DNA from: Cladocopium goreaui | Lineage: Eukaryota; Sar; Dinophyceae; Suessiales; Symbiodiniaceae | Assembly: GCA_947184155.2 (NCBI GenBank) | Contig: CAMXCT020002721.1 | Location: forward strand, 24,967-88,966 | DNA length: 64,000 nt | Reading direction: 5' to 3' | Shown: in pieces, positions 16,054 through 51,186 of the stretch | Layout of the letters: each line of letters starts with the position of its first letter | Position numbering within the stretch: position 1 is the first letter of the stretch | The notes under the pieces: model-generated | The model's input: only the letters and a program-made list of their open reading frames with translations | Told to the model about the DNA's origin: nothing | Database searches by the model: none | Translations under genes and position numbers: made by a program

Positions 16054-17038
16054 TCGAAATGTCTCAGGGACAAAGTTCGAATATCGAGATGAACTGTGAA
16101 TATATGAACAACCATCGACATCAGGCAAGGCAACTATCGCAAGATTAGTGCCCACATACTTTGATACAGCAAGGGTAGTGCACTCCTCCAATTTCAGCAC
16201 TGACAAACTAAGTCAAGGTTTTTTGAGTGATGGGTGGGCCACTAGTGCCCCCCCTGTTCTATTTTGTAGTGTTTAGTCCGTGTGGTACGACGAGATCAAT
16301 TGGTCAATACGACGTGTGCTGAGTACCAAAAGGGCTCCAGGCATCTGACCTGTGGCAGAGTGAACTCTCCTGCTTGTCCCCATCTCCCATCAATTTAATA
16401 GGGGCAAGACCCTTTCGTGCAGTCAAGCAAAGAAATCATTTCACATCACCACACAATCCTGCCAATTATTGTTTGTTAGTGAGAATTGACGAAGCTAGAC
16501 TATTGCCTTGAACTTGGCACTTTTTGTGCACCGGCAACATGTTGCTCAGGCTCAAGTGTAGACAAACGTTTCCTCTAAGATCTGCCGTGATGCCCTATCC
16601 CCTACCAGCAACTCATGTGCAATTCTTCTATGGTACTGTTTCCCTTTATCTATAGTAAGAAAATGGTGCCCCGAGACGTCTCGAAATTATCCTAATACGT
16701 CAATATTGAGATCTGATCCTAGGACCGGGCACTCGCTCCGACCAAGATGTTTGCTGTTCAAATCACTTTCTAGAGTGTCTCCTTGAATGATGGTATAATT
16801 GGCACTGACCACCATCTTATTTAAGATGTCTAAATCGGTAGCTTGCCTGAACACGGTGTTTTTCCGGCCATAGACGTGTCGGGGTTTCACCTGACAGGCA
16901 TCTACTGCAACCACCCCCCTAACCTGTCACTCTCTCGTAAGGGAACAACTTTCTCTCCCTGTTTTAACTGATGCCTATATATATATATATATCTATCTCC
17001 TATATTAACATTAGCTCATCAGTGTCAAAACTGAAGCC
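16054..17038 (+). other. Non-coding spacer with one conserved hairpin
   Basis: Almost 1 kb without a supported ORF on either strand. It holds the first copy of the CRTAGAC-loop hairpin family (16845-16899) about 140 bp before the next ORF, and an AT dinucleotide run at about 16977-16992. Confidence 0.55.
16845..16899 (+). repeat. CRTAGAC-loop hairpin, copy 1
   Basis: Outer stem GCCTG/CAGGC, then GGTG/CACC; inner stem CCGGC/GTCGG (16864-16868 with 16878-16882) closing the 9-nt loop CATAGACGT. Same architecture as copies 2 and 3 with different stem bases. Lies 139 bp upstream of the ATG at 17039. Confidence 0.8.
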
Positions 17039-17350
17039 ATGGAAGAGGACAAGTTGATCCGAATGGCAGCAGCCATCAGTGAATACACTATCAGCAGTAT
17101 GCTGCGAGAAACGGTTTCTGGGGTAGCTGAGACGCTTAATCAAGCTGCCCCAACAGTGCAAACCCTCCCGGGTATTCCTCAGCATCTAGTGAATGATATT
17201 GCTAGAGCGCAGCAGGCGCTAGAGCAATTAGAACGAAGCGCAGTCAACTACCAGAAAGAACGAGCAGCTGACGTGGCAGATGCACAGAAAGCTATCATGC
17301 AACACCGTCATCATGCAACACCGTCATCTTCGAGGGAAAGAGGAGCTTGA
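17039..17350 (+). CDS. Small coiled-coil protein, family A member 2
   Basis: 103 residues from an ATG in good context (GCCATGG). Gap-free similarity to the protein at 15700: same M-D/E-E-E/D-R/K-LI start, LP turn and following amphipathic helix (ARAQQALEQLERSAV). The last dozen residues (HRHHATPSSSRERGA) include a local duplication of the codons for ATMQHRHHATPSS-like sequence (about 17297-17325), so the C-terminal end may be recent. Function unknown; paralogy argues for a real gene. Confidence 0.55.
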   Translation: MEEDKLIRMAAAISEYTISSMLRETVSGVAETLNQAAPTVQTLPGIPQHLVNDIARAQQALEQLERSAVNYQKERAADVADAQKAIMQHRHHATPSSSRERGA

Positions 17351-18078
17351 TTCGAATTTCAATTCCGAGCCATGGAAGTGTACAGAGTGTCCCTTTTGTC
17401 AGTGAATGCCGTAGCAGGAAAATGAATATGCATTGAAACGTATACAGCATCTTCCTCAACAATGGGAGTACAGAGACCACTAAAACGACACAAACATTTG
17501 TACGACTGATCTTCATCTGACGACTTTGCATAAGGAATCATATCATGCGCTCCAAATAAAGTCGCTGCGTTACTGCACTACATTTTAGTGAAGCGTCATC
17601 ACCTGATCGAATGTTTGTTTGTTTGCTTCATTGTATTCTAGCGTCGACATTTACCGGCGCAACCTTTTTGTTTGTTCTGTGGCTCACAGCACCAGCAAGA
17701 AGATACGTCTCCACTGGAGCTCGCAGCACGCCGAAAGAATAAGATGTGTGCCAGTCCTCTGAAGTCACGCAGTCAAGATGTTTTTCATTTCAGCGGCTTC
17801 CCCATGACCTGGAGTGTGGTGTATTTCTAGTGTCCACTACTGTTCATGGTAACACTCGATGTAACCTGCAACACAGTCACCTGTACACGGTGCTCCTCTG
17901 ACCGTAGACGAGTCGGGTTGCACCTGTCAGGGTTTCATGACTGCTGTACAATCACGCTGTTGCCTTTACAAGCGCTAGATAACATGACTCCCGATTAATA
18001 ATCGATTTCCCCTACATCTCTCCTGGTGGAGAAACGACAAGGGTGTATTACGGTATAACACAAAGCTCTGTGCTAGCC
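17351..18078 (+). other. Non-coding spacer with one conserved hairpin
   Basis: About 730 bp with no supported ORF; contains hairpin copy 2 at 17880-17931, followed by a short T-rich stretch before the next ORF. Confidence 0.5.
17880..17931 (+). repeat. CRTAGAC-loop hairpin, copy 2
   Basis: Outer stem CCTG/CAGG and GGTGC/GCACC; inner stem CTGAC/GTCGG (17898-17902 with 17912-17916) around the loop CGTAGACGA. Nearly the same as copy 3 at 20370. Lies about 150 bp upstream of the ATG at 18079. Confidence 0.85.
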
Positions 18079-18882
18079 ATGGCATCGCCGTCACTTACTT
18101 TCCTGGAGAACTACCACTGGAAGGGCTACGCGGTCGATCCCATTGTCAACAACTCTAATACGATGGTGTGTTTGCATCGAGGAAATTTCCCAATGCACCG
18201 ACATTGCAAAAATATGGAAATAGGGTGTGTGCCTTTCAATCTTCTAGAGGCATGGGTATGGATCCATATGGAGAAGTGGAACATCCTATGGGCGGATGAT
18301 GAGGCGTGGCTCCCACCGGATGTGAATGTTGTCTCACGGGAGCGCCTACTCCACGGATTCCATAAGGTCATTACCCATGACACTGACGAGGATTACCTTC
18401 AGGAGTGGGTGGAAGTAGCAGGTAGGGGTTTTTACCCCTTCGCAGCTGAGATCCGACACTATGGCTATGCCTGCTGGGCGAATTCACGGCGCTTTGCCAT
18501 CGTAGCGCGAAGTACTGAACAATGTGCTATTATTGCAGAGGTCATGCACGCTTACAACCTGTTGGGAAACCGCATCGAAGTATATGCCCCCCAGGCAGAT
18601 GGGATTGCTCTCACAGACCGTACTAGAATTAATAGAGCGATTCACGAAGATGATCGGTCTTGCTTTGACTTTCGGCAATCCCAAGCTTGCCGTGATGCAA
18701 TCGCTGGGAAATTCCCCAACAGTGCCAGTGAGGAGGAAAGAATCTTCCACCTCAGCGAAAGGATCCATCTATTGCAGAAACAGCATAATGACTTAGTCCA
18801 TGAAGCAAACCGAGCTATCTATCAAGTACAGCAGAGCTGGCAGATGCTCAGTGAAGCCTATGCGGCACTTTTCGCTGGGTAA
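18079..18882 (+). CDS. Unknown protein, family B member 1
   Basis: 267 residues from the ATG at 18079 (AGCCATGGC; the frame opens 36 bp earlier at a GTG). No known domain. It is rich in Trp and His in its first half (EAWVWIHMEKWNILWADDEAW). The segment VEVAGRGFYPF..SRRFAIVARS, and further on HEDDRSCFD, match VEMGGRTMWPF..PRRFAIISNH and NEDTRICWA in the ORF at 21595-22778 in the same order, so the two are diverged paralogues. The C-terminus is a predicted helix (SERIHLLQKQHNDLVHEANRA-like). Repeated retention of the family in this cluster argues for a real function in whatever element the cluster belongs to. Confidence 0.6.
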   Translation: MASPSLTFLENYHWKGYAVDPIVNNSNTMVCLHRGNFPMHRHCKNMEIGCVPFNLLEAWVWIHMEKWNILWADDEAWLPPDVNVVSRERLLHGFHKVITHDTDEDYLQEWVEVAGRGFYPFAAEIRHYGYACWANSRRFAIVARSTEQCAIIAEVMHAYNLLGNRIEVYAPQADGIALTDRTRINRAIHEDDRSCFDFRQSQACRDAIAGKFPNSASEEERIFHLSERIHLLQKQHNDLVHEANRAIYQVQQSWQMLSEAYAALFAG

Positions 18883-19306
18883 CCTGTATCACCACAGTCA
18901 TTGGCATTGCCCCAGTATTCAGTTGGAGACGCTAGATCGCTCTCTTGAAAAAGCAGGGCAACGAAAGGTTACCACCGGGATTTTCAGACTAGTGCTGTGC
19001 AGCATTCAAATTTGTCAAAACTTGCCAAGGTGTGATCTGTGTACATGACCTTTCGCACATGACTGCTGAAGCTTTTGGCCGATGAAATGAGACATTAGTC
19101 TAGGGCGGTGTTTTCCAATGTCGCAGCTGACCATCACACTAGCTCGGGAGAGATTTCCTTCTTCAACCACTGGATTATGCTATCCTCATTGTTGGGTACT
19201 CCCTTAATCACGTTCCCAAGCTGTTCCTGAAGGGTACACTCTCCCTCCCGTAAGCCCCTCGACATACACAGCAAAATTATGTGTTACAATTTCACCCGTA
19301 AGACTC
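18883..19306 (+). other. Non-coding spacer
   Basis: 424 bp with no supported ORF and no member of the hairpin family that I can find. Confidence 0.45.
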
Positions 19307-20053
19307 ATGGCCTATGCGCGCTTCAGACACGGTAGCCATCAGGTACCATCATCGGTCAGAATGCTGGTGCATGGCCTGGAAGCTGCCCAAGATTTGACCA
19401 GTACTTTAAGAGACTTCCGCCGTACGGTTAAGCTGCTGCAGAGTGGTCTCGTCATACTATTTCCGGACGAAACGTCCGGATTACATTTATTATACAGCAC
19501 ACTTGACAGAGACTTAATGCAAGTGGAACGCACGTGTCAGTTTCTCACCCATCAGCTCCTTACAGCGATGGCAGAGACACATGACGACATCGTACAATTG
19601 GCGGCGTTCAGTAGCCCAGCGGACAGAGGAGTCTGGATCAACCGACTCTTCTTGATTCCCGCTGGTCCAGGGTCATTAACTGACGGATCAGGCAGATATC
19701 CAGTCCCCCTCGACGCTCATCCTTTTCGAGTAGTGGTCAGGACTGTACTGATCACGGCCAGCTTGGGAGGTTTCATCGATACAGAGGCACTTGCTGCCCC
19801 CGTTTCGTCCCTGGTGGAGCTAACCTTTGCGCTCTTGCGAGTGAATAGACCTTGGAACATCAGGACGTGGACTGAAGTTGCTGACGGCGTTGATACTATT
19901 GTTGTGTCGGTGTCCCAAGATACTCTGCTCAGAGACGTAGTCAGAGAACTCCAACCGTTTGTGCGCATTCAGATCCTCATGCAGGACCCACCTACTGCAG
20001 TGGTAAGTGACTCCACCAGTGAGCTGCTATCCCCGAGGGTAGTGTTACTGTGA
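19307..20053 (+). CDS. Unknown protein between family A and B paralogues
   Basis: 248 residues from an ATG at 19307. The first 60 residues are helical (MLVHGLEAAQDLTSTLRDFRRTV) and recall the general shape, not the sequence, of the family A coiled-coil proteins. The rest is hydrophobic and strand-like (RVVVRTVLITASLGG, ELTFALLRV, DTIVVSVSQDTLLRD). No family recognised, no transmembrane segment and no Cys motif. The intact 248-codon frame, its strand and its place in the series make it a likely gene. Confidence 0.5.
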   Translation: MAYARFRHGSHQVPSSVRMLVHGLEAAQDLTSTLRDFRRTVKLLQSGLVILFPDETSGLHLLYSTLDRDLMQVERTCQFLTHQLLTAMAETHDDIVQLAAFSSPADRGVWINRLFLIPAGPGSLTDGSGRYPVPLDAHPFRVVVRTVLITASLGGFIDTEALAAPVSSLVELTFALLRVNRPWNIRTWTEVADGVDTIVVSVSQDTLLRDVVRELQPFVRIQILMQDPPTAVVSDSTSELLSPRVVLL

Positions 20054-20369
20054 AAAAACAAACAGTTGATGAGAATGGCATTCAAAAGTAGATAACTACA
20101 GGATGTAAATGGTGAAGGTAACTCATCACAGTAGGTCACAGTTCTCCTTATCATTATACTGTCGGTTGAGCATGTAAAGTCGTCCTGACGCAGCCATTTC
20201 ATCCTCAAACCTTTTGAGCAACATAAAACGTACCTGCCACATAGCTTACACGCTCGCACTGCACACAGATCCACTTTCACTCAAGTTGATAATATGGTGT
20301 TTTCTCTACGAATCTGTGGCTTAAGCTGAGGGGTTGTATCTAGCCACTAACCCAACTTCCAATAAGTTA

Positions 20370-20421
20370 CCTGAACACGGTGCTTCTCTGACCGTAGACG
20401 TGTCGGGTTGCACCTGTCAGG
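20370..20421 (+). repeat. CRTAGAC-loop hairpin, copy 3
   Basis: CCTG/CAGG and GGTGC/GCACC outer pairs; inner stem CTGAC/GTCGG (20388-20392 with 20402-20406) with loop CGTAGACGT. Differs from copy 2 at only a few unpaired positions. It lies directly before the open frame that begins at 20432. Confidence 0.85.
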
Positions 20422-20662: not shown

Positions 20663-21058
20663 ATGAAGCACCTGGATGTAATCGACGGGGAGCTGGCAGC
20701 AGTCCCAGCTGAAGAACGGCCAGCTGCGGGCATTATTGGACAAAATCTTGAACTAGTCATACTTACGTTGCGATCGCCGGACGCCGAAGTATGGACAGCA
20801 AGCACAGCAACAGCTGCAGCGGCTAGACTTGGTAGCACTCAGTACCAAGAATATATCCTGCTCTCTAACGGATTGATACAGCGCACTCCATGTGAGTGCA
20901 CCCTCACGGACGAGGCCATCAGTTATATTGATCATCAACTGATAGACCAGCTTTGCGTTGAGGGCATAACCATCACGGATGCCTCTTCGGTTCGAGTGGC
21001 AACAGTCTTCGTCCAGCAAAGTTATACAGAGCTTGCCTGTTTCCGTTCCTTCTTCTAA
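20663..21058 (+). CDS. Unknown protein of about 131 residues
   Basis: The frame is open from 20432, but the first in-frame ATG is at 20663 (MKHLDVIDGELAAV). The protein is Ala/Glu/Thr-rich with strand-like ends (VRVATVFVQQSYTELACF). No family recognised. If translation used a non-ATG start, up to 77 residues more would be added, but that part reads as low-quality sequence. A modest case for a gene based on length, strand and position after a conserved hairpin. Confidence 0.4.
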   Translation: MKHLDVIDGELAAVPAEERPAAGIIGQNLELVILTLRSPDAEVWTASTATAAAARLGSTQYQEYILLSNGLIQRTPCECTLTDEAISYIDHQLIDQLCVEGITITDASSVRVATVFVQQSYTELACFRSFF

Positions 21059-21594
21059 GCCACATGAGTCGGCGACTGGCGCCCCACGAGAAAACATGTG
21101 TAGCGCGGAGTCGAGTAACAGTGCACTTCTGGTACATGTCGCTATTCAGTATATGTGTACCTTGAATTTTGCATATCAAGCAGTCTATTGGCGAGTGGCA
21201 TGAGTGCATGTTAGCTGTATTGAATAGCATAAGTATATACTGCATATTGCCGCTTTTCGGCTCAAATTATCCCCTGCCCAGACATATTGGCAAGGCGTGG
21301 GCTCTCACACTTCTGGCCGTAGACTGGCTCAGGGGTGTACCCTCGCCTTACCCTGCCCTCCCTCTTTCTCTCCCTCTCTGTCTGCCCTCCTTTTCTCTTC
21401 TCTGTGGCCTGCCCGTCCCATCCCCTTGTTGCCACCTTCTGTCCTCCCTCTGTATTGCTCCGTGGTACCAATACCCTCTGCCGTGTCACCTCGCCTGTCT
21501 ACCCTCCCTGGTCTATCTGGCACATTGTTCTGTGCCATTCCTTTTAATCTCACACATAGAACGGGAGTAGCTGGCGATAGTTAGCAGAGTCACC
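21059..21594 (+). other. Non-coding spacer with pyrimidine-rich tract and one hairpin
   Basis: 536 bp; contains hairpin copy 4 (21313-21332) followed by a C/T-rich tract (about 21340-21545). The ORFs in this tract arise from skewed base composition and are not supported. Confidence 0.5.
21307..21338 (+). repeat. CRTAGAC-loop hairpin, copy 4
   Basis: Inner stem CTGGC/GC-T-CAG with one bulged T (21313-21332) closing a loop that begins CGTAGACT; outer pairs ACAC (21307-21310) with GTGT (21335-21338). Here the stem bases differ from copies 1-3 but remain paired. About 260 bp upstream of the ATG at 21595. Confidence 0.8.
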
Positions 21595-22778
21595 ATGACG
21601 CGATGGAAAGGGGACAAGTGGAGATTGAAGGCAGGCCCACAGCTTGGCCCAACGAACAGCAATGAGTCAGCTGAGGGTACCACTACAGGAAATAACCCAG
21701 AACCCCGCCGCTGTGGCTACAAAGAGTCCTTTGTCCAAGAATATGATGGCATCAAGGTGTACCATCACCAAGGCAGCTATCAGCATCTCGGCCCACAGAT
21801 CTATTCTTGGGCTTTCTATGAATATCGAATGGTTATCAACTCGGAGTGTTGGAACATCATTATATTGATGAGAACATGAAGGAAGTTCCAAGCAGTTTCC
21901 CAGGCTCTAGCTCCGCTAAGCTCACACACGACTTCTGCCATGTTGATTCCGAAAGCAGCGATGACGTATACACTAGCTTCAGTTTCGTAGAAATGGGAGG
22001 CCGCACCATGTGGCCCTTCTACACCACAGAGTCCTTCCAGGAAGACCTATGGATCTGGGTTAGTCCTCGCAGATTCGCCATCATTTCCAACCATCCGAAT
22101 AATGAAAAGCTGAACCACTTCTATTCGAACAAAATGCATGAACATCATATTCTAGCCAACAGAGCGAAGTGCTGGAGCACCTATATAGTGGACACCGATG
22201 GCAGCAAGAAGAAGGACTGCCTCATTGCCCTCAACGAAGATACAAGGATTTGTTGGGCCGATCAAGAGACCTTCGCCACAGGGTTTGAAGACAAGTATGA
22301 TATGCGACAGACAGCACATAAAGGAGCAATGTCCTATGGGAAACGCAAACACCCAGGCCCCACAGGGCAAGGCAGTGCCAAACCTTTCGATGCTACAGGT
22401 ACCTATAGTGCCCGAGACATGCAAGCTCTAAATGCTACCTTTGCCAATCCAGGCCAATCGGCCTCCTTACCAGCTGAGCAAGCCAAGGGAGAGGCAATGG
22501 CTGCACAATGGACATGCGGACAAGTGCCGCTACTTGCACCTATGGCAGAAGGAGTTGACAGGAAAGACCCGCAACTAGCCTATGCAAGAACACTGCTAAC
22601 CGTTTTTCAAGAGGCAGTGAATCAAATGGCCACTGTTGTGAAGAACCTGGAACAAATCCAGATAGAAAGTGTGGCCGGAGGTGGTGCGAGCCCAACCAAG
22701 GAGTTGACACAGGAGCAATCACAGGACGAGAACCAAGATGCTGAAGCAGGAAAGCAGCAGCAGGACTCACATCAGTGA
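21595..22778 (+). CDS. Unknown protein, family B member 2 (frameshifted near 21850)
   Basis: Starts at an ATG in good context (CACCATGAC) in frame 1 (MTRWKGDKWRLK...) and passes to frame 3 at about 21850, joining SECWNII to YIDENMKEVPS, which mirrors NILWADDEAWLPP of the paralogue at 18079. The common core (VEMGGRTMWPF, PRRFAII, NEDTRICWADQ) supports homology. The C-terminal third is different: Gln/Glu/Ser-rich with a predicted helix (TVFQEAVNQMATVVKNLEQIQ) and an acidic, Gln-rich end. The one-base break may be decay or sequence error. Function unknown. Confidence 0.55.
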
Positions 22779-23301
22779 ACGCGCGCAGTACGTCGGATGT
22801 ACATGATCGTAGCGAAGACTGCCGACATGCATCATTCTGACGGTGAAAGAAAAAGGCGTGCCTGTCCGATCGGGAGTTAGTGATCAGTCACAGGTAAGGT
22901 GCCGAAGGCCTCAGACCTTGAGAACTGACCTGTTTGCCTTGGCATGTTACTTCTATCTGCTCCCCATAAGGTACACTCAGGCTGACTTCTTCCCCTGCTC
23001 TCCCCTATTACTTTCTTGTCCTCCGCAGCTTCTGATGTCTGTTTATGGGCTCAAACCACTGATTGTCCTACAGCAGTCGCCTTGCATCCCGCCTGATTTA
23101 GGTGTTCGGATCAACTCATGACTGACCGTTAGGACTGCCCCCTAATGTATACCTTCTCCTCAAGTCTTGTTATCATAACATAGACCCGGGCAAGCCGGCG
23201 GCGGAAGTTTCCCAAACATAAATGACCTATAGTTCAAAGACACCCTGTCCTGACCGTGTCCTTCCCTCGACAACCGTTTGATTTTTTCAGCGAGAGACGA
23301 A
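22779..23301 (+). other. Non-coding spacer
   Basis: About 520 bp with no supported ORF, RNA gene or repeat, leading into the first satellite block. Confidence 0.45.
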
Positions 23302-23705
23302 GCAAAGTCTTCACACTCCACACTTCACACTGCACTCTTCGCACTCCAAACTTCAAACTTCACACTCCACACTTCACACTTCACACTTCACACTTCTCAC
23401 TTCTCACTGCTTCCTTCGCACTCCAAACCTCACACTTCACACTTCACACTTCACACTGCGCTCTTCGCACTCCAAACTGAAACTTCACACTCCACACTTC
23501 ACACTCCACACTTCACACTTCAGACTTCACACTTCTCACTGCTTCCTTCACACTCCAAACCTCACACTTCACACTTCACACTGCGCTCTTCGCACTCCAA
23601 ACTTAAACTTCACACTCCACACTTCACACTTCTCACTTCCCACTGCTTCCTTCACACTGCACACTTCACACTGCAGTCTTCATGCCCCACACTTCACACT
23701 GCTCT
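23302..23705 (+). repeat. CACTTCACACT minisatellite
   Basis: Irregular tandem array built from words such as TTCACACT, CTCCACACTTCAC and TCTTCGCACTCCAAAC. A higher-order period is visible: groups ending in CTCTTCGCACTCCAAAC or CTTCCTTCRCACTCCAAAC recur about every 80-130 bp. The ORFs here (Ser/His/Thr-rich) are products of the repeat and are not genes. Confidence 0.85.
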
Positions 23706-23732
23706 AAACCTACGTGCAACCAAAAAACACCA

Positions 23733-24592
23733 GCGCCAAAATGGAGAAAATCTGCTAACAAATCCATTTCGCAGCCTTCATGCAGCCACTCCAAGACGAT
23801 TTACGAGATCCAGCTGCAAAAGACATTACGCATGCAGCCAAAGCAAGAAGCAACCTTGACGCAGCCATTCCAATGCGATCTGCGGAGACTTCTCGACGCC
23901 AAAGCGAAAAAAAGACGATTTTGAAGCACTTTTTAAAAGGATTTTTAGAAGGAAAATCACTAGCGCCAAAATGGAGAAAATCTGCTAACAAATCCATGTC
24001 GCAGCCTTCATGCAGCCACTCCAATACGATTTACGAGATCCAGCTGCAAAAGACAATAGTATTACGAATGCAGCCACAGCACGAAGCAACCTTGACGCAG
24101 CCATTACAATGCGATCTGCAGAGACTGAGTTGCAAAACACAATAGAACTACGCGCAACGGCGTCGGAAATTGTAGCTCCAAAACCGGATCTCGACGCCAG
24201 AGCGAAAAAAAGACGATTTTGAAGCACTTTTTAAAAGGATTTTTAGAAGGAAAATCATTAGCGCCAAAATGGAGAAAATCTGCTGACAAATCACTGTGGC
24301 AGCCTTCATGCAGCCACTCCAATACGATTTACGAGATCCAGCTGCAAGAGACATTACGCATGCAGCCAAAGCAAGAAGCAACCTTGACGCAGCCATTCCA
24401 ATGCGATCTGCGGAGACAGAGTTGCAAAACACAATAGAACTACGCGCAATGGCGTCGGAAATTTTAGCTCCAAAACCGGATCTCGACGCCAGAGCGAAAA
24501 AAAGACGATTTTGAAGCACTTTTTCAAAGGATTTTTAGAAGGAAAATCACTAGCACCAAAATGGAGAAAATCTGCTGACAAATCACTTCCGC
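23733..24592 (+). repeat. Tandem repeat, unit 230-298 bp, about three copies plus a partial
   Basis: The words GCGCCAAAATGGAGAAAATC, GCAGCCTTCATGCAGCCACT and GAAGCACTTTTTAAAAGGAT recur with unit starts near 23733, 23963, 24261 and 24553. Spacing differs because a roughly 65-bp piece (TTGCAAAACACAATAGAACT and following bases) is missing from the first unit. The repeated short ORFs on both strands are shadows of this array. Confidence 0.85.
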
Positions 24593-26780: not shown

Positions 26781-26843
26781 CATTCTAAAAGTCCGTAACA
26801 CGGAAGTTTCTCCCCCTAAACTTCCTTTGATTAGATATATTCA

Positions 26844-27954: not shown

Positions 27955-28481
27955 TGCCACTTAACATAATGCTTGTAGCACGCATCAGCAAAGGAGTGAG
28001 CACCTGCTGCCATGATGGACGTATTTCTGCTCATTCTAGTGAGTATGTTTTGGCATCCTTAACTCTTTCCAACAACTAGTTACAACAATTCACAACTTTC
28101 TCCTTTTATTGCCGTTGTTATCACAAGGTGTATCTACCGCGAGGAAATCGGAGAGGTCGACTCGTAAGAAGTCACGTTCACTTAGGTAAGGCTACGTAGG
28201 TAGAGATATCCCATGGCCGCCCTAGGCATGGTTAATTGACTCCGTGCCTGCGCATCTTTGCCCATTATGGCTCAAATCAGTGAATATTGGTGCGTCTCCT
28301 CGCCCCAGCTTAGAGCTTACCCTAGCACAGTACTCTTACAACTGTCCCTGCTTTCCTTGCAGTCTGTTTCTGGGGGAGTTTCGTTGTCGTGCTGTGGGTG
28401 CTTCATTGGCCGTATCTTTCCTCTCTTTTGCCTTAACTCCAGCTGCTCCCTTCTTTCTTACTTGGTGACCAGTGGGTACCT

Positions 28482-28521
28482 GGCTTTTCTGGCCGTAGAC
28501 TGGCTCAGGACTGTCAGTGCC
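28482..28521 (+). repeat. CRTAGAC-loop hairpin, copy 5
   Basis: Inner stem CTGGC/GC-T-CAG (28489-28508), loop beginning CGTAGACT; outer pair GGC/GCC at 28482 and 28519. Same inner sequence as copy 4. Confidence 0.75.
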
Positions 28522-28790
28522 TCACACCCCCTTTTTTCTCTCATTTCCCGCTGATCGTGCTCCAATTTATCTACTGTCTCTCACTCTCTCCCGTGGTTTC
28601 AGTGCTGGGTGGTACGTCCCCCTCCCCCCTTCCTCTCCTTCCCCGGGTCCCTTTCCCCCCCTGGTGTTGTCTTTTTTTGGTTGTTTGTTTCGCTGGGTTT
28701 TTTGGTCTGGTGTTGCTCGCTCTGCCTGCATACCCGGTTCTATCCTTGCTTTTTGGTTTGGTTGTTGTTTGGTTCCCTAGGGTTCGGTGC

Positions 28791-28828
28791 CTGGTCTTTC
28801 TGGCCGTAGACTGGTCCAGGATTTCCAG
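28791..28828 (+). repeat. CRTAGAC-loop hairpin, copy 6
   Basis: Inner stem in CTGGCCGTAGACTGGTCCAG (28800-28819); outer pair CTGG (28791-28794) with CCAG (28825-28828). Compared with copies 4 and 5 the stem partner changes from GGC to GGT, keeping a G-T pair. Confidence 0.78.
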
Positions 28829-28920
28829 CACCTTCTCTCCCCTCCCCTATTGGTTTGGATCGGCTCTTTCTTTTCGGATCGGTTATCTCTTTGTGCTACC
28901 TCCCCTGCAAATACTCCAGT

Positions 28921-28957
28921 GTGGTACTTCTGGCCGTAGACTGGTCAGGGGTATCAC
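28921..28957 (+). repeat. CRTAGAC-loop hairpin, copy 7
   Basis: Inner element CTGGCCGTAGACTGGTCAG (28930-28948, no bulge); outer 7-bp stem GTGGTAC (28921-28927) with GTATCAC (28951-28957), one wobble pair. Confidence 0.82.
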
Positions 28958-28997
28958 GACGCTGGCCCCCCCAACTAATACCATTTGTGCACTGTCT

Positions 28998-29017
28998 CTG
29001 GCCGTAGACTGGTCCAG
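28998..29017 (+). repeat. CRTAGAC-loop hairpin, copy 8
   Basis: Inner element CTGGCCGTAGACTGGTCCAG, identical to copy 6. The outer stem is weak here. It ends 24 bp before the start codon of the polyprotein at 29042, the closest spacing of any copy to an ORF. Confidence 0.75.
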
Positions 29018-29041
29018 GGGCTTTGCCTCCCAATTCTGGTT

Positions 29042-29677
29042 ATGGACCTCCTTACTAGGCAGCAAGCGAAACACCATTGGTTCGAAGCTGATCCCCTAGC
29101 GCAATTTGATGACCTGTTGGAAGCCTTAGGCCTCTACAAGGACATTTCAATTGAGTACGGTTTGAATCAGTCTGTACATCATCAGTGGCGGTTTGGAGAC
29201 CCCCACAAAAAGTCCGGTGAACCTGATAGGCACGACTATGAGATAAAGGTCGTGGATGGTGTTGAGGTTGGGCCGGGACCAGTGTGGCACAGCCTGTATC
29301 GATGGATTGTCAGCCAAGCCGCTGACTTCCTAGCCTTCCATACTGTCTACCTCATCACTGACAATCGAGACCTTTTGGCGGAGACTGTGTCCAGCACCGC
29401 AGGGCTAAGTCACTGGCCCATGGTCGCTGCGTGGTGGAAGGAGCGAATACGATATGTGGGCCCGTATGGGGAACGTACCACAGTTGTATTTGTACCCATA
29501 TCGGCAGACACGGGGCTGGATAAGGTGCACCCCACGTGGGCTGGCACCTACATTTTGGATGCGTGTGTTTTTCTTTTCCCAGACATCAACTTTGCTCTCA
29601 TCGATAGTGACTGTGTGCCTGTAACACTGTTCGAAATTCAGGAGCTGTGGCTGTCATGTGCAGAGCATGACCCCTGA
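29042..29677 (+). CDS. Glycosyltransferase-like N-terminal domain of a polyprotein
   Basis: 211 residues from the ATG at 29042 to a TGA at 29675-29677. Near its end is GTYILDACVFLFP followed by FALIDSDCVPVTLFE, which has the DxD metal-binding signature and surroundings of a nucleotide-sugar glycosyltransferase fold; DYEIKVVDGV may be an earlier strand. I remember near-identical DSDCVPVTLFE motifs in dinoflagellate predicted proteins. The same frame is open immediately after the TGA for another 4.6 kb, so this is probably the first domain of a longer protein made by readthrough, or one interrupted by a nonsense change. Activity is not established by the sequence. Confidence 0.6.
   Translation: MDLLTRQQAKHHWFEADPLAQFDDLLEALGLYKDISIEYGLNQSVHHQWRFGDPHKKSGEPDRHDYEIKVVDGVEVGPGPVWHSLYRWIVSQAADFLAFHTVYLITDNRDLLAETVSSTAGLSHWPMVAAWWKERIRYVGPYGERTTVVFVPISADTGLDKVHPTWAGTYILDACVFLFPDINFALIDSDCVPVTLFEIQELWLSCAEHDP
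29675..29677 (+). promoter_or_regulatory. Single in-frame TGA between glycosyltransferase-like and helicase ORFs
   Basis: Context CCC TGA AAA GAA. The frame is open upstream from 28985 and downstream to 34288, so removing this one codon gives a continuous frame of about 1,770 codons. It could be a programmed readthrough site or a nonsense mutation. Confidence 0.6.
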
Positions 29678-32600
29678 AAAGAAGAATGCCGACAACCTGA
29701 AGCAATCCCGAGCAGTCCGATTGCCCCTGCACAGAAGAGAGCAAGATCAGTTGACACGGGACAAGCCACGCAACAGCAACCTGGCCCCCCTATCAAGCTG
29801 CCTAAATCACGGAGCGTAGAGAACCTTGTGGCCAGTGCTGTACGGTCGCCACCTCCTGCCCATACAGGAAATTTCGAGGATGAGGTTGACTTTGGTGGGT
29901 CAGAACCCTCGAGCCCACACCCAACTGAGCGGGAAGAAGAAAAGAGCAGAAACTCCACGCCCACGGCCCAGTCGTGTCCAGGATCGACTGACAAGCGAGC
30001 TACCACTGAAGCACAAAAACCTGTGGCCAACAAAGGTGTCATCCTGGTAAGTGAAGCCTTCACGGAAATCAATGCTGGACTAGTTATTGTGTTGGCATCT
30101 GGACATCGCAGCCCAATTCAGGAGTCTGACCTTGTGGACCCTGAGCGTGACCCAGATGAACTTGCCGCTATTGCCAGCACGGCCTACCTTGGCCATGTCG
30201 AAAGCTACCTATCGACCACCCAACCGCCTTGCGATACTGAAACTGCCGTGTCCAGTGGCTTGCTAGGATCACCGCTTTTAGGCACCGCCACTCGATGTGC
30301 GGCTGATTGGTGTCATGCCTGGAGCATATTGGGGCAATGGTCAGGTTTGGTCACTTTTCCTGTACCTGCAACGGGTCAGTGGCCTCGGCATGGACACTTG
30401 CGAGGCATCCTTGACGGCTTCCAAGGCAGACAACCCAATTTTCATAAGTGGGCCCGGCCCGCCTATGAGCAAGGGGCCCTGCCAACACTCAGTCTCCTCC
30501 CGGGCGAGGTTGCGATTAAAGTGTTACCAGGAGACAAGATTTATCAGGCTGTGGAAATTGAACCGGGCTTCATGAGCCCTGCCATACTGCATGGTTTTGG
30601 AACAAGGGCCAAGCAACGGCTACCATCGCGACTTGAGGAATTGGCGCAGTTTGGCTGGTTACCACTAGCAGCAGCCCTGTTTGGGACAGCAGAGTGGCAG
30701 CCACAGTGGCTCCACCACAACTTTCTCCCAGTCATAGGCCTGCGTGTCCATGCGAAGATCCCACCGTCCCCGCTCTCGTATCAGCAACAAGTGGCGCTGC
30801 TCGGCTTGTGGGAACGAAGACCTGCAATTGGAACTCAGTGCCGGGCCCTTGCCCAGGCCGCTGAACTCACATTTGGCCTCCCAACCGTTTTTCGCGCACC
30901 AGAGGATTGGACAACAGAAATGAAAGGAGAAGTATTTGATCTCGTGCAGTGTTCCCAGCGGATCTATATGGGGGATGCAGCCAACATTTCGCAAGCTCCG
31001 CAAGCTCTGGTTGATCGACCGAAGAAATGGGCACAATGGATTCTTTCGATGAATAGTCTGTGGCAAGAGGACTCTCCCCTGCCGGATCGACCCCTCACAG
31101 TGCACTGCAGTGGATTGGGTGGCGGGTTGCTAAGCCCTGACCATGAGTACGACATTTTCTTTCAGAATCATGCGCAAATGAAAGTGTATGGCCCCTCACT
31201 GGCGATGACAGATGATTGGGAGCAGCGCATCACTCAACTCGGGCTGACTAAAACTACGCATGAGTACGCAATCTACCAGCTTTTCTCCACTGCCCTGGGA
31301 TGGAGTGCATGGAAGGTATTTTTGCCGGATAGATTTGCCAATCGAAAGCTTCTGATCACCCGTGCTATACGGCTACTGACTGCGGCGACCATCCGGCCAG
31401 CACATGCAAGGCCTCCCCATCCCACATGGGTCACTGCAGTTCGTCAAATCTTCAGGTGCTATCACCCACAGGGCAAGTTGCTGCTTTTGCGAGCCTGTTT
31501 TCCTCATTATGTGACAGCATCCATCCCAGACGGAATTAGGGACATCGATGTACTTGGCTTCTCGGCGGGATCGTACACTGGATTGGCAATCCATAAAGTG
31601 CTCAATGAATTCGATTGCTTCCCAGGTACCACTAAGGTAGCAGCAATTGCCTCTCCGCCCGAAATGCTGAGGCTGGCAACTGGGGAACGAAGAGTGGTGC
31701 TTCTGCATTGTCTTGAGGACCGACTCTGCGTGTGGCATCCTGACACCCTCTCAGACCTTAGCTATAATGTCGTCCTCATCGACGGGCAGCCATCCTGGAG
31801 TGGCCGAGCACGACATGCATATGGCCACCTATTGTTTACACCAATTGAAGAAGGCACTCATCATATTGATTATCTCCAGATTACGACCCCGGAGGTCATA
31901 CCGCATGGGATACGATGTGAGGGGCTCTTACGAGTGCTCTCATGGGTTAGCTTTGATCTCCCTGATCATTGCAAACGCACCCTAAGTTCGCTTCTCCAGG
32001 CTGCTGGCAAGGGATGCCCTGATCTACATATGGTGCCATGTAATGGCAGAGATGTAAGAGATGACCCCCTTGCTACGGAACAGGATTTGCGACAGGTCTT
32101 GATTGACATGATCCCAATCCCTGGGCAGGCGAACGCGGAAGGGGGAGAACTCATGAGGAGCCTGCTAGCTGAATTCCTCCGTGGCTTCTCTCTGCGCACA
32201 TTGATCTTCCTGCTGGATATGGTGTTGCCTCAATTGGACGCTTACCATGCTGGTCGTCAGCTACAGCACTTACAACCCTGGACCAGCGTTGTGTTGGCGC
32301 AACGACAAGAGCGCGGTCAACCGGGAGTCGAGCTGGTGGTCCGATATGGATATGAGGCCTTTGCTGGTTTTCATGTGGTGCAGCTGCTCACAGAGGGTAT
32401 TCCTCTTTTGCTCTTCAGCGACCCGAAGGCGGTTCCTTCCGTGTCGCCATGGAGTCTGTGTGTAAATGGCAACTTAGGGAGGATGGAACCCATTCCCATG
32501 GCAGGTAGGGCACTGTTTGGGCGTTTCCAGCTCCCCGATGGCCCGCGTCGCTGTGCCATTTTCCTGGTCCAAGAAAAAGTAATGCAAGGTACTAGTCGAT

Positions 32601-34288
32601 CCGCGGATTCCCGTGCATACCGTCGAATTGCCCCAAAGTCACTTGAGCTAGTCCTGGTCTCCAGGCCTGTCGCATTTGCCTTTTGTGGCCGCCTTCTAGT
32701 GCAACAGCCAGCGGAGGTGGAATATTTTGACCCAGTGCGAGACTGGCCGCAACCTATTGTTTTCCGTGCAAGCTTCTCTGTGTTGATGGAAGAAATGGCA
32801 TTCCTTGGTGACACACGAAGTCGATGTGAATTGCTGGTTTTTGCACAGGCCAACCCGGCACGACTCCCACTGACAATGGGCATTCTCCAGCCCAATATCC
32901 CAGTGCGAAGGATGATGAGTGAACGCAGGACAAAACTGACAGATGCATTGGTCCGAGTGCTTTGTCGCCTATTGACACCCATTGGAGTTGTTCTCCCAGG
33001 TCCGCATGATGAGTATATGCGCGACAGCCTACTCTCTTTGGCAGGGCATGAGGATGGGCATGTCCTTACTGTGGCGGTAGCATTGCTCCTGGCGATCCTC
33101 ACTGGCCGTTCTGACCTTTGTATCGCAGGCGTTTTTGGTGCCGGAAAGACGCGTTCCCTGGCAGTTTTGTTAATTGCCCTCAGCTGCGAACTAAGTGACT
33201 TCTATGCGATCGTTTACACCAAAGAAAACGTTGCTGCAAAAGCCCTAGCTGACCAAATCAGTGACCTTGCCCCACCAACGCAAACAGCATTTGGACGGCT
33301 ACTGGGCCGCATCGAGGAAGGCAAGGGCGAAGCTTATGCAACAAAAATTGATGTTCGATGCAGTGATCGCAATAGAGTTATTGCTGAGAAACGCATTTTG
33401 ATTGCGACTGGAGGCTCCGCTACGGCGGAAATGGCCATGAAATACTCATCATTTAGTCTCTGGCTCTCCAAGGTGTGGCTTGCATTTATGGATGAAAGCC
33501 AGCAGTACGGCAATTACCATGAAATTGCCGCACTTGCTGCAATCCAGCAACCGGCACTGATTGTTTTTGTTGGTGACCACAGGCAAACACCTGGAGGCCT
33601 ATCCAAGGGAAGGGCTGCAGCAGCGAATAGGCAGAAGCTTCTTCACCGTCCCCTGTGGCTACGAGCCTTGAATCGCCCTGGTGATTATTTGCCCCCTGCC
33701 CGGCTCACCAAGTTAATTGCACTCCTCTGGCCGGATGCGAGCCAGGATAACGACTCTGAAGTGGCTGGGCTACTCAACCTTGGCCAAGCACCACACACAG
33801 GAATTTGGACTACTGAAACAACTGCCCAGCACCTACCAACTTCACTGGCGCGCCTTTTCAGTGAGGAAACGCTCAGCCATCTGAATGTTCAGAGTTGCCT
33901 GATTTCTGCAATACTAGCTGTCCTGCTTATTGCTACTGCGCCAGAAGAATTTGGCATCCCTGAGTGTACAACTACGGTGGAAGCAGCTGGCCTAGATGGT
34001 CCACATAGATGGGGTATCATACTGCCCAACAGCTCCAGAGTGTCCCTGTTGACGTACAAAGCCATCGTCGCAGTTAGGTACCCGGAATTGGTGCTACATG
34101 ATCAGGATCCCATCCAAATAGGCCATTTTGTCCCCCACGATCACACTGTTGGGCACGGAGGTTTCCGTACAGTGCTATGGGAAGTACCCAGAGATTCCAG
34201 AGACCTCCTGGCTGCTATTGAGGATATTGTAGTGTTTCTCAGTGCTATCGGGACCTCAATCAAGGAGCGACAGCGCAGCTCCTGGTAA
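29678..34288 (+). CDS. Large protein with alpha/beta-hydrolase-like domain and SF1 helicase
   Basis: About 1,537 codons in frame with the upstream ORF; no ATG start is needed if the TGA is read through (GTG at 29828 otherwise). The first 130 residues are Pro/Ser/Glu-rich. At 31555-31581 GFSAGSYTG matches the nucleophile elbow G-x-S-x-G of alpha/beta hydrolases, with KVAAIASPPEM after it. Helicase motifs: Walker A GVFGAGKTRS (33129-33158), DESQQ (motif II, about 33490) and VGDHRQTP (motif III, about 33568), characteristic of superfamily 1 helicases of the UPF1/DNA2 type. The frame ends at 34288 before the last motifs, which are found in the next two frames. Likely an RNA or DNA unwinding enzyme of a large mobile or viral-like unit; the role is inferred. 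Confidence 0.72.
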   Translation, partial: KEECRQPEAIPSSPIAPAQKRARSVDTGQATQQQPGPPIKLPKSRSVENLVASAVRSPPPAHTGNFEDEVDFGGSEPSSPHPTEREEEKSRNSTPTAQSCPGSTDKRATTEAQKPVANKGVILVSEAFTEINAGLVIVLASGHRSPIQESDLVDPERDPDELAAIASTAYLGHVESYLSTTQPPCDTETAVSSGLLGSPLLGTATRCAADWCHAWSILGQWSGLVTFPVPATGQWPRHGHLRGILDGFQGRQPNFHKWARPAYEQGALPTLSLLPGEVAIKVLPGDKIYQAVEIEPGFMSPAILHGFGTRAKQRLPSRLEELAQFGWLPLAAALFGTAEWQPQWLHHNFLPVIGLRVHAKIPPSPLSYQQQVALLGLWERRPAIGTQCRALAQAAELTFGLPTVFRAPEDWTTEMKGEVFDLVQCSQRIYMGDAANISQAPQALVDRPKKWAQWILSMNSLWQEDSPLPDRPLTVHCSGLGGGLLSPDHEYDIFFQNHAQMKVYGPSLAMTDDWEQRITQLGLTKTTHEYAIYQLFSTALGWSAWKVFLPDRFANRKLLITRAIRLLTAATIRPAHARPPHPTWVTAVRQIFRCYHPQGKLLLLRACFPHYVTASIPDGIRDIDVLGFSAGSYTGLAIHKVLNEFDCFPGTTKVAAIASPPEMLRLATGERRVVLLHCLEDRLCVWHPDTLSDLSYNVVLIDGQPSWSGRARHAYGHLLFTPIEEGTHHIDYLQITTPEVIPHGIRCEGLLRVLSWVSFDLPDHCKRTLSSLLQAAGKGCPDLHMVPCNGRDVRDDPLATEQDLRQVLIDMIPIPGQANAEGGELMRSLLAEFLRGFSLRTLIFLLDMVLPQLDAYHAGRQLQHLQPWTSVVLAQRQERGQPGVELVVRYGYEAFAGFHVVQLLTEGIPLLLFSDPKAVPSVSPWSLCVNGNLGRMEPIPMAGRALFGRFQLPDGPRRCAIFLVQEKVMQGTSRSADSRAYRRIAPKSLELVLVSRPVAFAFCGRLLVQQPAEVEYFDPVRDWPQPIVFRASFSVLMEEMAFLGDTRSRCELLVFAQANPARLPLTMGILQPNIPVRRMMSERRTKLTDALVRVLCRLLTPIGVVLPGPHDEYMRDSLLSLAGHEDGHVLTVAVALLLAILTGRSDLCIAGVFGAGKTRSLAVLLIALSCELSDFYAIVYTKENVAAKALADQISDLAPPTQTAFGRLLGRIEEGKGEAYATKIDVRCSDRNRVIAEKRILIATGGSATAEMAMKYSSFSLWLSKVWLAFMDESQQYGNYHEIAALAAIQQPALIVFVGDHRQTPGGLSKGRAAAANRQKLLHRPLWLRALNRPGDYLPPARLTKLIALLWPDASQDNDSEVAGLLNLGQAPHTGIWTTETTAQHLPTSLARLFSEETLSHLNVQSCLISAILAVLLIATAPEEFGIPECTTTVEAAGLDGPHRWGIILPNSSRVSLLTYKAIVAVRYPELVLHDQDPIQIGHFVPHDHTVGHGGFRTVLWEVPRDSRDLLAAIEDIVVFLSAIGTSIKERQRSSW

Positions 34289-34305
34289 TGTGAAATCGCA
34301 CGGCA

Positions 34306-36620
34306 GTGCACACACAACTCCTGCAGCATGGCTTTCAGGCAGCTTGGTTTGGAGGCCTGCGAATAGCCACAACTTCGTCTGCAGCAGGGGCCACCGCGCG
34401 AATAGCAGTTGTTGTCCAGACAGGGTGTGGTTTCCTCAGCGGGGGCCGTCGGGGAGCAACGTTGACTGTCTTGGGCGAGCCACTGTCGCGCTCACCAGAG
34501 CCATTAAACATACATACATTGTCTCCCCCATTGATATGGCTGGGCTGATTGGGATGGCTCAGACGCTTGCGGTCTATCACTACGGGTACTACACCCTTAA
34601 AGATAGACTTGTCCAGTTTCATGAGCCCAAGCACGTGCCATCGGACGCAGAAGCGGTCCTTGAGTGGGGACTCAATACACCTTTTAATTCACAAGACAAA
34701 CCGCCCCTTGCCATTGCTATGGTAGTGACCGTGAATGGCGTGCGATCCCTGAGAAGGTATCGGCTGGTCATTGCACAAAAGTCAAAGCTGCGGCTTACGC
34801 AGGAAGTCAATGCAGCGTTAGCCTCCCACAGTCGTGACCACCGCCTCACGGCGAGTAGTTTCTTTCCGTGTTCTATTGATAGGGAATACCTGTATGGCTA
34901 TGCCGGCGATGGATATCGCTCTCCACTTTGGCTGTGTGCTTCCCACAATGGCTCCCCAGTTCTTGTACACAGGCTCAGAGGAAGCAAGATATATTTTCAT
35001 CAAGCCACCAAAGACCGGCGAATATTACTCATCCCAGGTATCCACTATTTTGATGCTCATAGGCTGCAACCACTGCTATTGCAAGCTCCTGCGCTGCAAG
35101 TGCATATGAGAGAGAGCCCTCTGGTAGGCCCTGAAGGGGCTGGCAAGACAGTGGATGATCCCTCGTCGGAGGAAGAGCAAGCCACCACTGAAAGTGAATC
35201 TGAGGTAGAGAAAGAAGACGATGACGAGGATACACCTCCGGAGGAACCATGGTGCCCGCCAATCCCACCGGCAGTGGATGATCCTACGGAAATGGAAATC
35301 AAAGGTGCTGCGGACAAGCTGGCCACTATGATGAACAGTTCACAGCCTCAAGCCAACGTTTTCTATCAGCCCGACAACCTAGGTGCTCTTCCACACCTGT
35401 GGCTGCAAGCCAAGCTCACTATCTCCCTGACGTCTATGCAGGAAAAGTTTGCCCGCCTTTTCATGTCAATTGCGTCAGAGCTGTGGCTGCGGGATGCGAT
35501 CGATACTGTTGAGGAGGTATTTGCACATGCTGCCCGTAGTTTCACACTCCGGCTGGCTGAAACACTTTCGCAGTACATATGCTCGCTCACTCGACGAGCA
35601 GAGTCTCTGGCTACCCCAGAGACGGAATGCCTGCTGTATGCCACTTTTTGGTTTCGTCCAATTCTCTCTGAGCTCATTGGGGCAGCCAAAGAGAGTGCAG
35701 AAGTGAACCGAAAACGTGCCCCCAGTGGCCCTGTGAAAGTTGTCGTCACAAACCAGCCCCACTCTCGGCGCCACACCGGGGTCGACCTGGTTAGTGGGAC
35801 TTCGGCCTTACTGGCGTGGTTTCCGGCTAGCTGGGCCAGCAGGATTGCGCCGTGTTTTTTAGGGGAAGAAGGCGGTGCCATCCAAGCCCCACAAGAGGTT
35901 TCCTTCTCATGTCCCCATCGAGTTTTTGAGGGGCTGCAGAGAGAAGCGGTTGATCAAGTACCGCAGGCAGTTAAATTCACTGACAAAAACGCTCCAGGAT
36001 TGAGTCTGGCCTTGGACGAGGAATTCCAAGCAGCTGACTGCTTTTCAGAACTCATCCGAGGGTACACAATGGGTGTAGTCGAACCCTACATCATGATGGG
36101 CCTGCAACCCACTGGACCCACGAGAGTCAACCTGGAAGTAATTGTACCATCCCCCAAAGGACTTACCCCTGCAATGTGGAAGCAGACAGCCACTCTGTGT
36201 CCACTTGAGTGGCCGTCCAACTATAGCCTCCTGAGGTTGTGGCATACGCCCAAAAGTTTCCACCAGTATGCTGCACAACTCAAGCAGCAAGTACAGCATC
36301 GCCATATGTTCACTCACTGGGAAGTCAACCGCGCTAAGTTAGCAAGCAGGGTGCTGTTCCAACGACCAGCCCATTACTTACCAGAAACGATTCTGCAACA
36401 GCACGTGCGAGAGCGTACCTTCCCTGATCGGAAACTACGCAGAAGAGCACCAGATAATGACGTGGTTACTTTTCAAACTAAATGCAACGAGCTACGTCTC
36501 CCGGCTGCAAGGGCAGAAAGGGCGAACCCTGTCTCCTTTGCAATTGGGAACAGCTGGAATGATACTCTCCGAGCAGACAAGCAACACCACCTCGAATATA
36601 CTACACGAAGTCAGACATAG
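34306..36620 (+). CDS. SF1 helicase C-terminal motifs and acidic/unknown tail (frameshifted)
   Basis: Frame 1 (34306 to about 34473) gives IAVVVQTGCGFLSGG, then frame 3 from 34473 gives GRATVALTRAIKHTYIV, the helicase motif VI (VALTRA). Both frame changes are of the -1 type and complete the helicase that starts upstream. The remaining 700 residues contain a strongly acidic linker (about 35150-35240, SEEEQATTESESEVEKEDDD-like) and then a helical region (LATMMNSSQ, EKFARLFMSIASELWLRD) of unknown role. The stop is at 36618-36620. No domain recognised after the helicase. Confidence 0.65.
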
Positions 36621-36838
36621 ATTCTTTCCTTCCTTCTCCCCCGCTGGCTATTTGGGTCGCACTATCTGCACTGTCTCTGTGTCCTTTTGGTCTGATGCAG
36701 TTTTCTCTTTTGGCCCCCCTTGCTGCGGTTGGTTGGGGCCCTTTTTGCTCCGGTAGGGACCTAACCTTTAGCTCCTCCATGTCCTGCATGTCCCTCACTA
36801 GTTCTGACCATTTGGCTTTTGAATTTCCACTGGCGTAT

Positions 36839-36880
36839 CTGTCCATAGACGTGACAGGTGCACTGGTGCCTCATCCTCCC
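36839..36880 (+). repeat. CRTAGAC-loop hairpin, copy 9
   Basis: Inner stem CTGTC/GACAG (36839-36843 with 36853-36857), loop CATAGACGT, followed by GTGCAC. Perfect 5-bp stem with a fourth pair (T-A) not used by the other sub-groups except copy 10. Located 220 bp after the helicase ORF stop. Confidence 0.82.
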
Positions 36881-36911
36881 AATAGTATGGTGTTTGGGCT
36901 AGTTTTTCTTT

Positions 36912-36954
36912 GTACTTATGTGTCTGTCCGTAGACGTGACAGGTGCACTCGTAC
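36912..36954 (+). repeat. CRTAGAC-loop hairpin, copy 10
   Basis: Inner stem CTGTC/GACAG (36924-36928 with 36938-36942), loop CGTAGACGT; next pair GTG/CAC (36920-36922 with 36946-36948) and outer GTAC/GTAC (36912 and 36951). 66 bp spacing from copy 9. Confidence 0.83.
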
Positions 36955-51165: not shown

Positions 51166-51186
51166 GATTTTTCCATATCGCCATGG

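Follow-up and report, generated by a model that had tools for sequence, protein, structure and literature searches.

In the window (the whole 64-kb stretch of Cladocopium goreaui DNA analysed here), a run of ORFs is accompanied by ten short hairpins on the same strand (Table 1). The hairpins occur in tandem arrays, and four precede g7. None of the copies falls within an ORF taken as a gene, nor within the LINE ORF at 8151–11825, which bears out an earlier note on this DNA that had placed them all in non-coding sequence and outside the LINE element. The same note had five copies (hp1–hp4 and hp8) preceding ORFs; the distances to the respective ATGs are 170, 176, 270, 277 and 39 nt.

Table 1. 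Hairpins and ORFs of the region, with positions in the window
Feature	Position	Strand	Loop (start)	Remarks
hp1	16845..16899	+	CATAGACGT (16869)	upstream of g1
g1	17039..17350	+		ORF, 103 aa
hp2	17880..17931	+	CGTAGACGA (17903)	upstream of g2
g2	18079..18882	+		ORF, 267 aa; 47 homologues; no Pfam family
hp3	20370..20421	+	CGTAGACGT (20393)	upstream of g4
g4	20663..21058	+		ORF, 131 aa; no Pfam family
hp4	21292..21349	+	CGTAGACTG (21318)	upstream of g5; held-out model match, E 3e-4
g5	21595..22778	+		ORF split over two frames: 21595–21879, 21876–22778
hp5	28472..28525	+	CGTAGACTG (28494)	first of four upstream of g7; held-out model match, E 4.4e-6
hp6	28786..28832	+	CGTAGACTG (28805)	held-out model match, E 3.3e-6
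hp7	28921..28957	+	CGTAGACTG (28935)	16-bp stem without a break
hp8	28989..29026	+	CGTAGACTG (29003)	39 nt 5' of g7 ATG; held-out model match, E 6.5e-4
g7	29042..36620	+		giant SF1-helicase-like gene; ORF pieces 29042–29677, 29828–34288, 34242–36620
hp9	36828..36868	+	CATAGACGT (36844)	3' of g7
hp10	36912..36954	+	CGTAGACGT (36929)	3' of g7; weakest fold

The homologues of g2 and g7 are numerous and belong to high-copy clusters, of up to 1018 member sequences for g7 and 417 for g2. PHROGs gave no match for seven ORFs, and Pfam searches with relatives of g7 gave only weak helicase matches under the cut-offs, together with two unconvincing families for the N-terminal piece. Among PDB sequences there was no match to the middle piece of g7 (E up to 0.1) and a single one to the last piece (E 0.69). 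The predicted structures of g2 (mean pLDDT 50.4) and of the N-terminal piece of g7 (56.6) were unusable, and the latter found no PDB match at E up to 0.001. No related locus was found for the helicase part of g7 in viral contigs, or for profiles of g2 and of the g7 N-terminus in viral and genome contigs. The hairpin pattern had two matches in viral contigs, which were taken as chance on a rough estimate; their outer arms look unlike those of the window.

A motif for the 5' side of the hairpins (TCYGNCCRTAGAC) picks out exactly ten sites in the 64-kb window, all on the + strand, where 0.01 are expected. The heptamer CRTAGAC occurs 14 times on the + strand and 4 times on the − strand; when a stem of 6 bp or more is also required (one 3' bulge tolerated), 10 and 2 occurrences are left, against a mean of 0.1 and a maximum of 1 in 150 dinucleotide shuffles (strands pooled). 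One of the minus-strand stems, at 35438, is opposite the g7 frame and reaches only E 0.43 with a covariance model. The ten inner-stem starts given in the earlier note are all correct, the loops beginning 5 nt downstream of each. That note had also proposed a covariance model; one built from six copies recovers the remaining four in the window (hp4, hp5, hp6 and hp8) with E values of 3e-6 to 6.5e-4. The next-best match, at 63947 (E 0.031), was inspected and taken as chance.

In the alignment of the window copies, the loop is C-R-UAGAC-NN (9 nt) in 10/10, and C-R-N-A-G-A-C is the part that most relatives have in common with the window. The fixed core reads UC-Y-G-N-C ... G-N-C-R-G-G, and folding predicts 14–22 base pairs per copy within a 62-nt stretch. 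Possible kissing partners of the loop (GTCTA/GTCTAC) show no clustering at the hairpins when their positions in the window are compared by eye.

The 3' sides, which played no part in site selection, pair better with their own 5' sides than with those of other copies (−26.2 vs −19.7 kcal/mol for own and crossed arms), and 0/200,000 permutations are as good. If only one of the similar copies hp1–hp3 is retained the figure is 3/200,000, and 31/200,000 if the test is limited to hp4–hp10. When the ten copies are aligned, the core of six pairs is paired in 60/60 cells; two of its pairs have changed on both sides (compensated) and four are invariant, and the covariation score is equalled in 4/500 shuffles. 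Within the core alone the covariation is thus modest, and most of the evidence comes from the arms beneath it. These covariation and arm tests cover the ten copies of the 64-kb window. The modest core, and the fold of hp10 (249/1000 random 3' sides fold equally well), are what could be said for chance or low complexity, or for conservation of a peptide encoded by upstream reading frames. The first two are contradicted by the shuffle counts, the arm permutations, the held-out model matches and the ten sites against 0.01 expected, the peptide by the reading frames of the leaders (see below), and this whole class of explanation is extremely improbable.

A G.U pair is invariant in 10/10 copies of the core alignment and, together with the orientation of the ORFs, favours RNA of the + strand. 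The + strand also folds more stably than the − strand in 10/10 copies; this was rejected as proof of strand, as energy-matched windows give all ten in favour of + in 4863/20,000 draws and a mean strand difference as low in 2462/20,000.

Where gene calls of the homologues extend into the leader, the hairpin could be sought in translation. Its signature, which had been broadened once the first leaders had been inspected, is present in 12/13 leaders of g7 and 2/9 of g2, over two reading frames, against a background of 1 match in 116,923 other residues. The strict signature is lacking in 7/9 g2 leaders and in the g7 leader P0135. In 15 leaders (P0234 among them by a looser pattern), the closest loop starts 34–97 nt upstream of the ATG, a range to be read with the short leaders in mind, which reveal only nearby hairpins. 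The stretch of hp6 has an identical translated counterpart in P0176, and hp7 and hp8 have counterparts in P0092 and P0174, where the two hairpins before g7 are placed 106 and 39 nt from the start, compared with 107 and 39 nt in the window. Some relatives deviate: the core implied by P0084 has an A-C mismatch, and the loops implied by P0086, P0088 and P0145 are without AGAC. On these translated leaders, relatives of g2 and g7 seem to bear the same hairpin before their start. A conserved peptide would not permit the signature to occur in more than one frame, as it does here in two, nor the stops present in the third frame of all ten window copies. The earlier note held that compensatory change implies a selected structure; the structure is supported by the comparison of own and crossed arms and by the presence of the hairpin in leaders of homologous genes, while the compensatory changes of the core contribute only modestly.

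A DNA-level element has also to be considered, either a single-stranded recombination site (a cassette border like integron attC) or a mobile hairpin that has inserted itself into the spacers. Arms that covary and have an extra base on the 3' side, and the order ORF–hairpin–ORF, are formally alike, and the orientation of the hairpins is uniform. Integron attC sites have core-site triplets conserved at their arm ends and a recombinase from the same system; by eye the hairpins share no such letters there, in a 43-column alignment in which some copies are truncated before their arm ends. The invariant G.U pair suits RNA better than DNA, the order and spacing of the two hairpins before g7 are kept in P0092 and P0174, and the proximity to the ATG favours a role in the 5' leader over recombination. 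A DNA-level origin is improbable.

The explanation we prefer, to which we give about an even chance, is that the genes of one high-copy multigene element carry, in their 5' leaders, cis-acting RNA stem-loops of a new family, probably bound by a protein. The position before the ATG supports a 5'-UTR regulatory hairpin of this kind, with putative protein binding. Either the host or the element would supply a trans-acting protein that reads the loop and the upper stem, while in the lower stem double-strandedness would suffice; arrays of two to four hairpins would offer several binding sites. Bound near the start codon, such a protein could control translation of the element's mRNAs or mark them as the element's own, and the choice between these two purposes is a guess. 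Several features count against the leader reading. Neither the motif nor the covariance model finds a hairpin upstream of g3 or g6 in the window, no gene was recognised downstream of hp9 and hp10, which themselves follow g7, and the hairpins of g1, g2, g4 and g5 are 170–277 nt off, with 0–4 ATGs intervening.

Part of this pattern would suit a 3'-end or termination signal of the preceding gene, like the hairpins that end giant-virus transcripts: hp9 and hp10 are at least 208 nt past the g7 stop and no gene was recognised beyond them, and every spacer hairpin also comes after some stop. But hp8 is 39 nt from the g7 ATG and ~1050 nt past the g6 stop, the hairpins of relatives are 34–97 nt from the ATG (in leaders that, being short, reveal only near ones), and termination hairpins need no fixed loop sequence, which makes such a signal quite improbable.

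A signal for RNA processing or trans-splicing is a more serious competitor, although less likely than the leader reading. In this case a long precursor would be cut (e.g. by an RNase III-type enzyme) or joined to the spliced leader before each gene, and hairpins in the spacers or outrons would mark the sites. Most spacers of the same-orientation ORF run do hold hairpins, and the long stem with an AG-containing loop resembles the yeast Rnt1 sites (see below). The stretches after hp4, hp5, hp6 and hp10 are free of AG for 227, 85, 91 and 107 nt, and the spacer 3' of hp4 is 71% pyrimidine, as upstream of a 3' splice site. However, in 16 stretches counted AG is as frequent as expected from base composition and not rarer, so exclusion of AG as a splice-site mark was rejected. 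From the hp8 loop to the g7 ATG, AGs occur only within hp8, which means that hp8 cannot be entirely outron. The C-AG of the 3' core is not kept in hp1–hp3 (alignment), and an array of four hairpins before one gene is hard to reconcile with cutting.

Returning to the cis-acting leader stem-loops, a bolder version can be put forward tentatively. The hairpins may serve as an RNA address label for a eukaryotic element of a class not yet described, which would be present in many copies, hold several genes, one of them for a giant helicase protein, and resemble a transposon or a virus; a protein encoded by the element would then read the C-R-N-AGAC loop, so that only its own transcripts are translated, processed or copied. 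Gene control in dinoflagellates is thought to be mostly post-transcriptional, according to the parts consulted of PMC12787238, and the hairpins point to an undescribed RNA control signal. They also point to a large element with several genes; apart from ankyrin repeats and a weak match to helicases, the family libraries searched recognise little of it. The loop could serve as bait for a protein that binds it, and dinoflagellate genomes can be scanned with the covariance model to count the genes that carry the hairpin. The literature searched, mostly outside subscription papers and available in part, describes no such hairpin or element, and no repeated structured leader element of several genes.

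The earlier note recognised no known ribozyme, and Rfam agrees, with 0 matches at gathering level over the whole window; permissive scans of the four stretches holding the ten copies gave three chance-level matches (E 3.5–4.4), none on the hairpins. The dinoflagellate spliced leader has 22 nt and contains CCGTAG...TGGCTCA, which is partly common to hp4 and hp5 by eye; the TCYGNC ahead of CCGTAG and the varying 3' half belong to the hairpins only. Relict spliced leaders are also found before retroposed genes, according to the parts consulted of PMC10235124 and PMC12787238. Such a relict is not present here, as neither CCGTAGCCAT nor GCCATTTTGGC occurs in the window. Introner elements of Amoebophrya, also hairpin-forming inverted repeats in a dinoflagellate, are located within genes, flanked by direct repeats where they meet the exons, and, in the sections of PMC7789003 available, have no family-specific inverted-repeat motif. 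The window hairpins, in contrast to introners as described in those sections, precede genes and have a fixed loop; no copy is inside an ORF taken as a gene, so they are not introners.

The s2m of (+)RNA viruses and insects is a conserved hairpin of 41–43 nt, sometimes in two back-to-back copies, with its function given as unknown; it is found near the genome 3' end and its sequence itself is conserved (PMC8515862, in part). Both are conserved hairpins that can be present in multiple copies, whereas, on that partial account, the window hairpins differ in having variable arms and a place before the ATG. Sites of the RNase III Rnt1 have a stem capped by an AGNN tetraloop and are cut about 14–16 bp below it. 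Stem length, AGAC in the loop and intergenic place are alike, but AGAC is here within a 9-nt loop, in which the bases flanking it are unpaired in most copies (folding, alignment), and not in a closed tetraloop, and the hairpins form tandem arrays. The iron-responsive element has a CAGUGN hexaloop and a bulged C; with C-R-UAGAC-NN in 10/10 loops and no Rfam match, the hairpins are not members of that family. They resemble it, and similar protein-read 5'-UTR hairpins, in being short stem-loops with a conserved loop and a variable paired stem, common to several mRNAs and near the coding start; they differ in a 9-nt C-R-N-AGAC loop in place of the 6-nt CAGUGN, in their tandem arrays and in belonging to one high-copy element.

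The positions that the earlier note gave for the ten hairpins (hp1 to hp10) are all correct. A pattern describing their 5' half only, TCYGNCCRTAGAC, has 10 matches in the window, all on the + strand, against 0.01 expected. Since the 3' side was not used in choosing the sites, its pairing is a fair test: random window stretches put in its place folded equally well in at most 42 of 1000 cases for nine of the ten copies, the exception being hp10 (249 of 1000). When left and right arms were swapped between copies around one common core, the native combinations were the more stable (-26.2 vs -19.7 kcal/mol). Native stability was reached by 0 of 200,000 such permutations of all ten copies, by 3 of 200,000 with a single member of hp1-hp3, and by 31 of 200,000 for hp4-hp10 alone. 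A covariance model built from hp1, 2, 3, 7, 9 and 10 recovered the four omitted copies, hp6, hp5, hp4 and hp8 (E values 3.3e-6, 4.4e-6, 3e-4 and 6.5e-4, in that order), the match ranked after them within the window having an E of 0.031. No Rfam ribozyme, hammerhead included, was matched.

In the ten-copy alignment, a core with the 5' arm U-C-Y-G-N-C and the 3' arm G-N-C-R-G-G encloses a 9-nt loop, C-R-U-A-G-A-C-N-N; hp4, 5, 6 and 8 have a single additional base on the 3' side of the core. Four core pairs are invariant, including a U.G in all ten copies, and two show compensated variation (UA/UG/CG and GU/AU/UA). Core pairing extends to 60 of 60 cells, in an alignment itself fitted to the structure. 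The lower-stem sequence varies by group (hp1-3, hp4-8, hp9-10), and most lower stems are interrupted by internal loops, while hp7 is a 16-bp stem without interruption.

ORFs around the hairpins, all in a single orientation
ORF	Position	Remarks
g1	17039-17350	
g2	18079-18882	
g3	19307-20053	
g4	20663-21058	
g5	21595-22778	two frames
g6	within 26761-27954	ankyrin repeats
g7	29042-36620	three ORF pieces

The giant gene g7 has SF1 helicase motifs, seen by eye, spread across its last two pieces, with weak Pfam support (AAA_19, E 0.0011, under the cut-off); a family and fold search with the N-terminal piece recognised nothing. A lipase-like GFSAGS motif is visible in the middle part, both in the window and in the homologue P0010. 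The small ORF at 15700-16053 and g1 encode similar protein starts (MDEERLIHIK... and MEEDKLIRMA...), and from these they are perhaps paralogues; the two were unpaired in an all-against-all comparison (E up to 1e-3). Several large tandem-repeat arrays lie between g5 and g6 (23226-26791), and 1064 nt there (25728-26791, +) are without an AG dinucleotide.

The window looks eukaryotic, judging from minisatellites and a LINE-type element (8151-11825) whose long ORF combines an RVT_1 reverse transcriptase domain (E 7.5e-11) with a weakly matching endonuclease; a bacterial search found no tRNA in the window. Related ORF sets recur over 42192-58098 (e.g. 44183/48979/53932, 42192/46393/52125 and 45413/55195), the ORF at 55195 giving a weak reverse transcriptase match, and the region comprises several related retroelement-like units. 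Two pairs of long direct repeats, each with a listed identity of 100%, occur at 50681-50980 / 58407-58706 and 2643-2916 / 3443-3716. The sequence TTGGCTCAAG at 63464-63473, equal to the final 10 nt of the spliced leader of dinoflagellates, is perhaps a relict leader, or else due to chance.

Homologue clusters hold up to 1018 member sequences for g7 and up to 417 for g2, so the hairpin region is high-copy DNA. The g7 relatives include two models labelled symbB, the label of Breviolum minutum, which makes a dinoflagellate a likely source of the window. Contigs of equal size recur across the homologue lists (43,695 for P0094 and P0207; 559,195 for P0004 and P0226), so that g2 and g7 probably occur together elsewhere too. 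We infer that the whole of 16.8-37 kb is one element; no ends of it were found.

These relatives (P numbers) were compared as protein sequences. Some of their gene models start within the leader, the residues before the start Met, and the hairpin is then readable in translation, as L-A-V-D-W-S-G (frame b, for example) or S-G-R-R-L-V-Q (frame c); in the third frame, every one of the ten window copies is interrupted by a stop. Among the matches listed for g7 (n=186; 66 from one search and 120 among 205 matches of another), the start Met is included in 58, and a leader of at least 15 residues precedes it in 13, of which 12 carry this signature, some two or three times. For g2 (n=47) the corresponding numbers are 28 and 9, with the signature in 2. 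These leader counts are not a blind test, as the signature was broadened once the first leaders were known. Outside leaders there is 1 match in 116,923 residues (g2 and g7 homologues, among matches listed), in P0176, where CLVFLAVDWSRISS is a translated hp6 continuing into a shortened gene. With a looser pattern P0234 (g2) and P0135 (g7) join the carriers, and P0086 and P0145 gain a second hairpin, at the cost of four matches within proteins; antisense forms are absent from the 22 leaders.

By back-reading, LTKDVSG, LTRDVSG and SDQRRVR would all fit one loop, C-A-R-A-G-A-C-G-U, and LAADWSG would fit C-G-C-A-G-A-C-U-G, which together would give a common loop C-R-N-A-G-A-C. SDQGRVR (P0086, P0088, P0145) deviates from it, and LTADWPG in P0084 would imply an A-C mismatch in the core.

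The nearest loop starts 34-97 nt from the ATG in 15 leaders, P0234 included (among matches listed). Short leaders reveal near hairpins only; each of the four leaders of at least 270 nt also has a hairpin less than 100 nt from the ATG. In P0092 and P0174 the hairpins lie 106 and 39 nt from the ATG, vs 107 and 39 in the window. The hairpins of g1, g2, g4 and g5 are 170-277 nt from their ATGs, and g3 and g6 are without a preceding hairpin. After hp9-hp10, downstream of g7, ORF lists show no recognised gene over the next few kb.

The favoured reading is a protein-read RNA stem-loop; its main rival is a processing or trans-splicing signal, which would suit the AG-free stretches of 85-227 nt after hp4, hp5, hp6 and hp10. 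However, AG is no rarer than composition predicts, and from the hp8 loop to the ATG of g7 the only AGs are within hp8. Arrays near the start codon would suit translation control, or a marking of the element's own mRNAs, with a protein reading the fixed loop and upper stem of the hairpin RNA. The constant loop and upper stem, combined with arms that vary yet remain paired, suggest the look of a protein-read RNA stem-loop.
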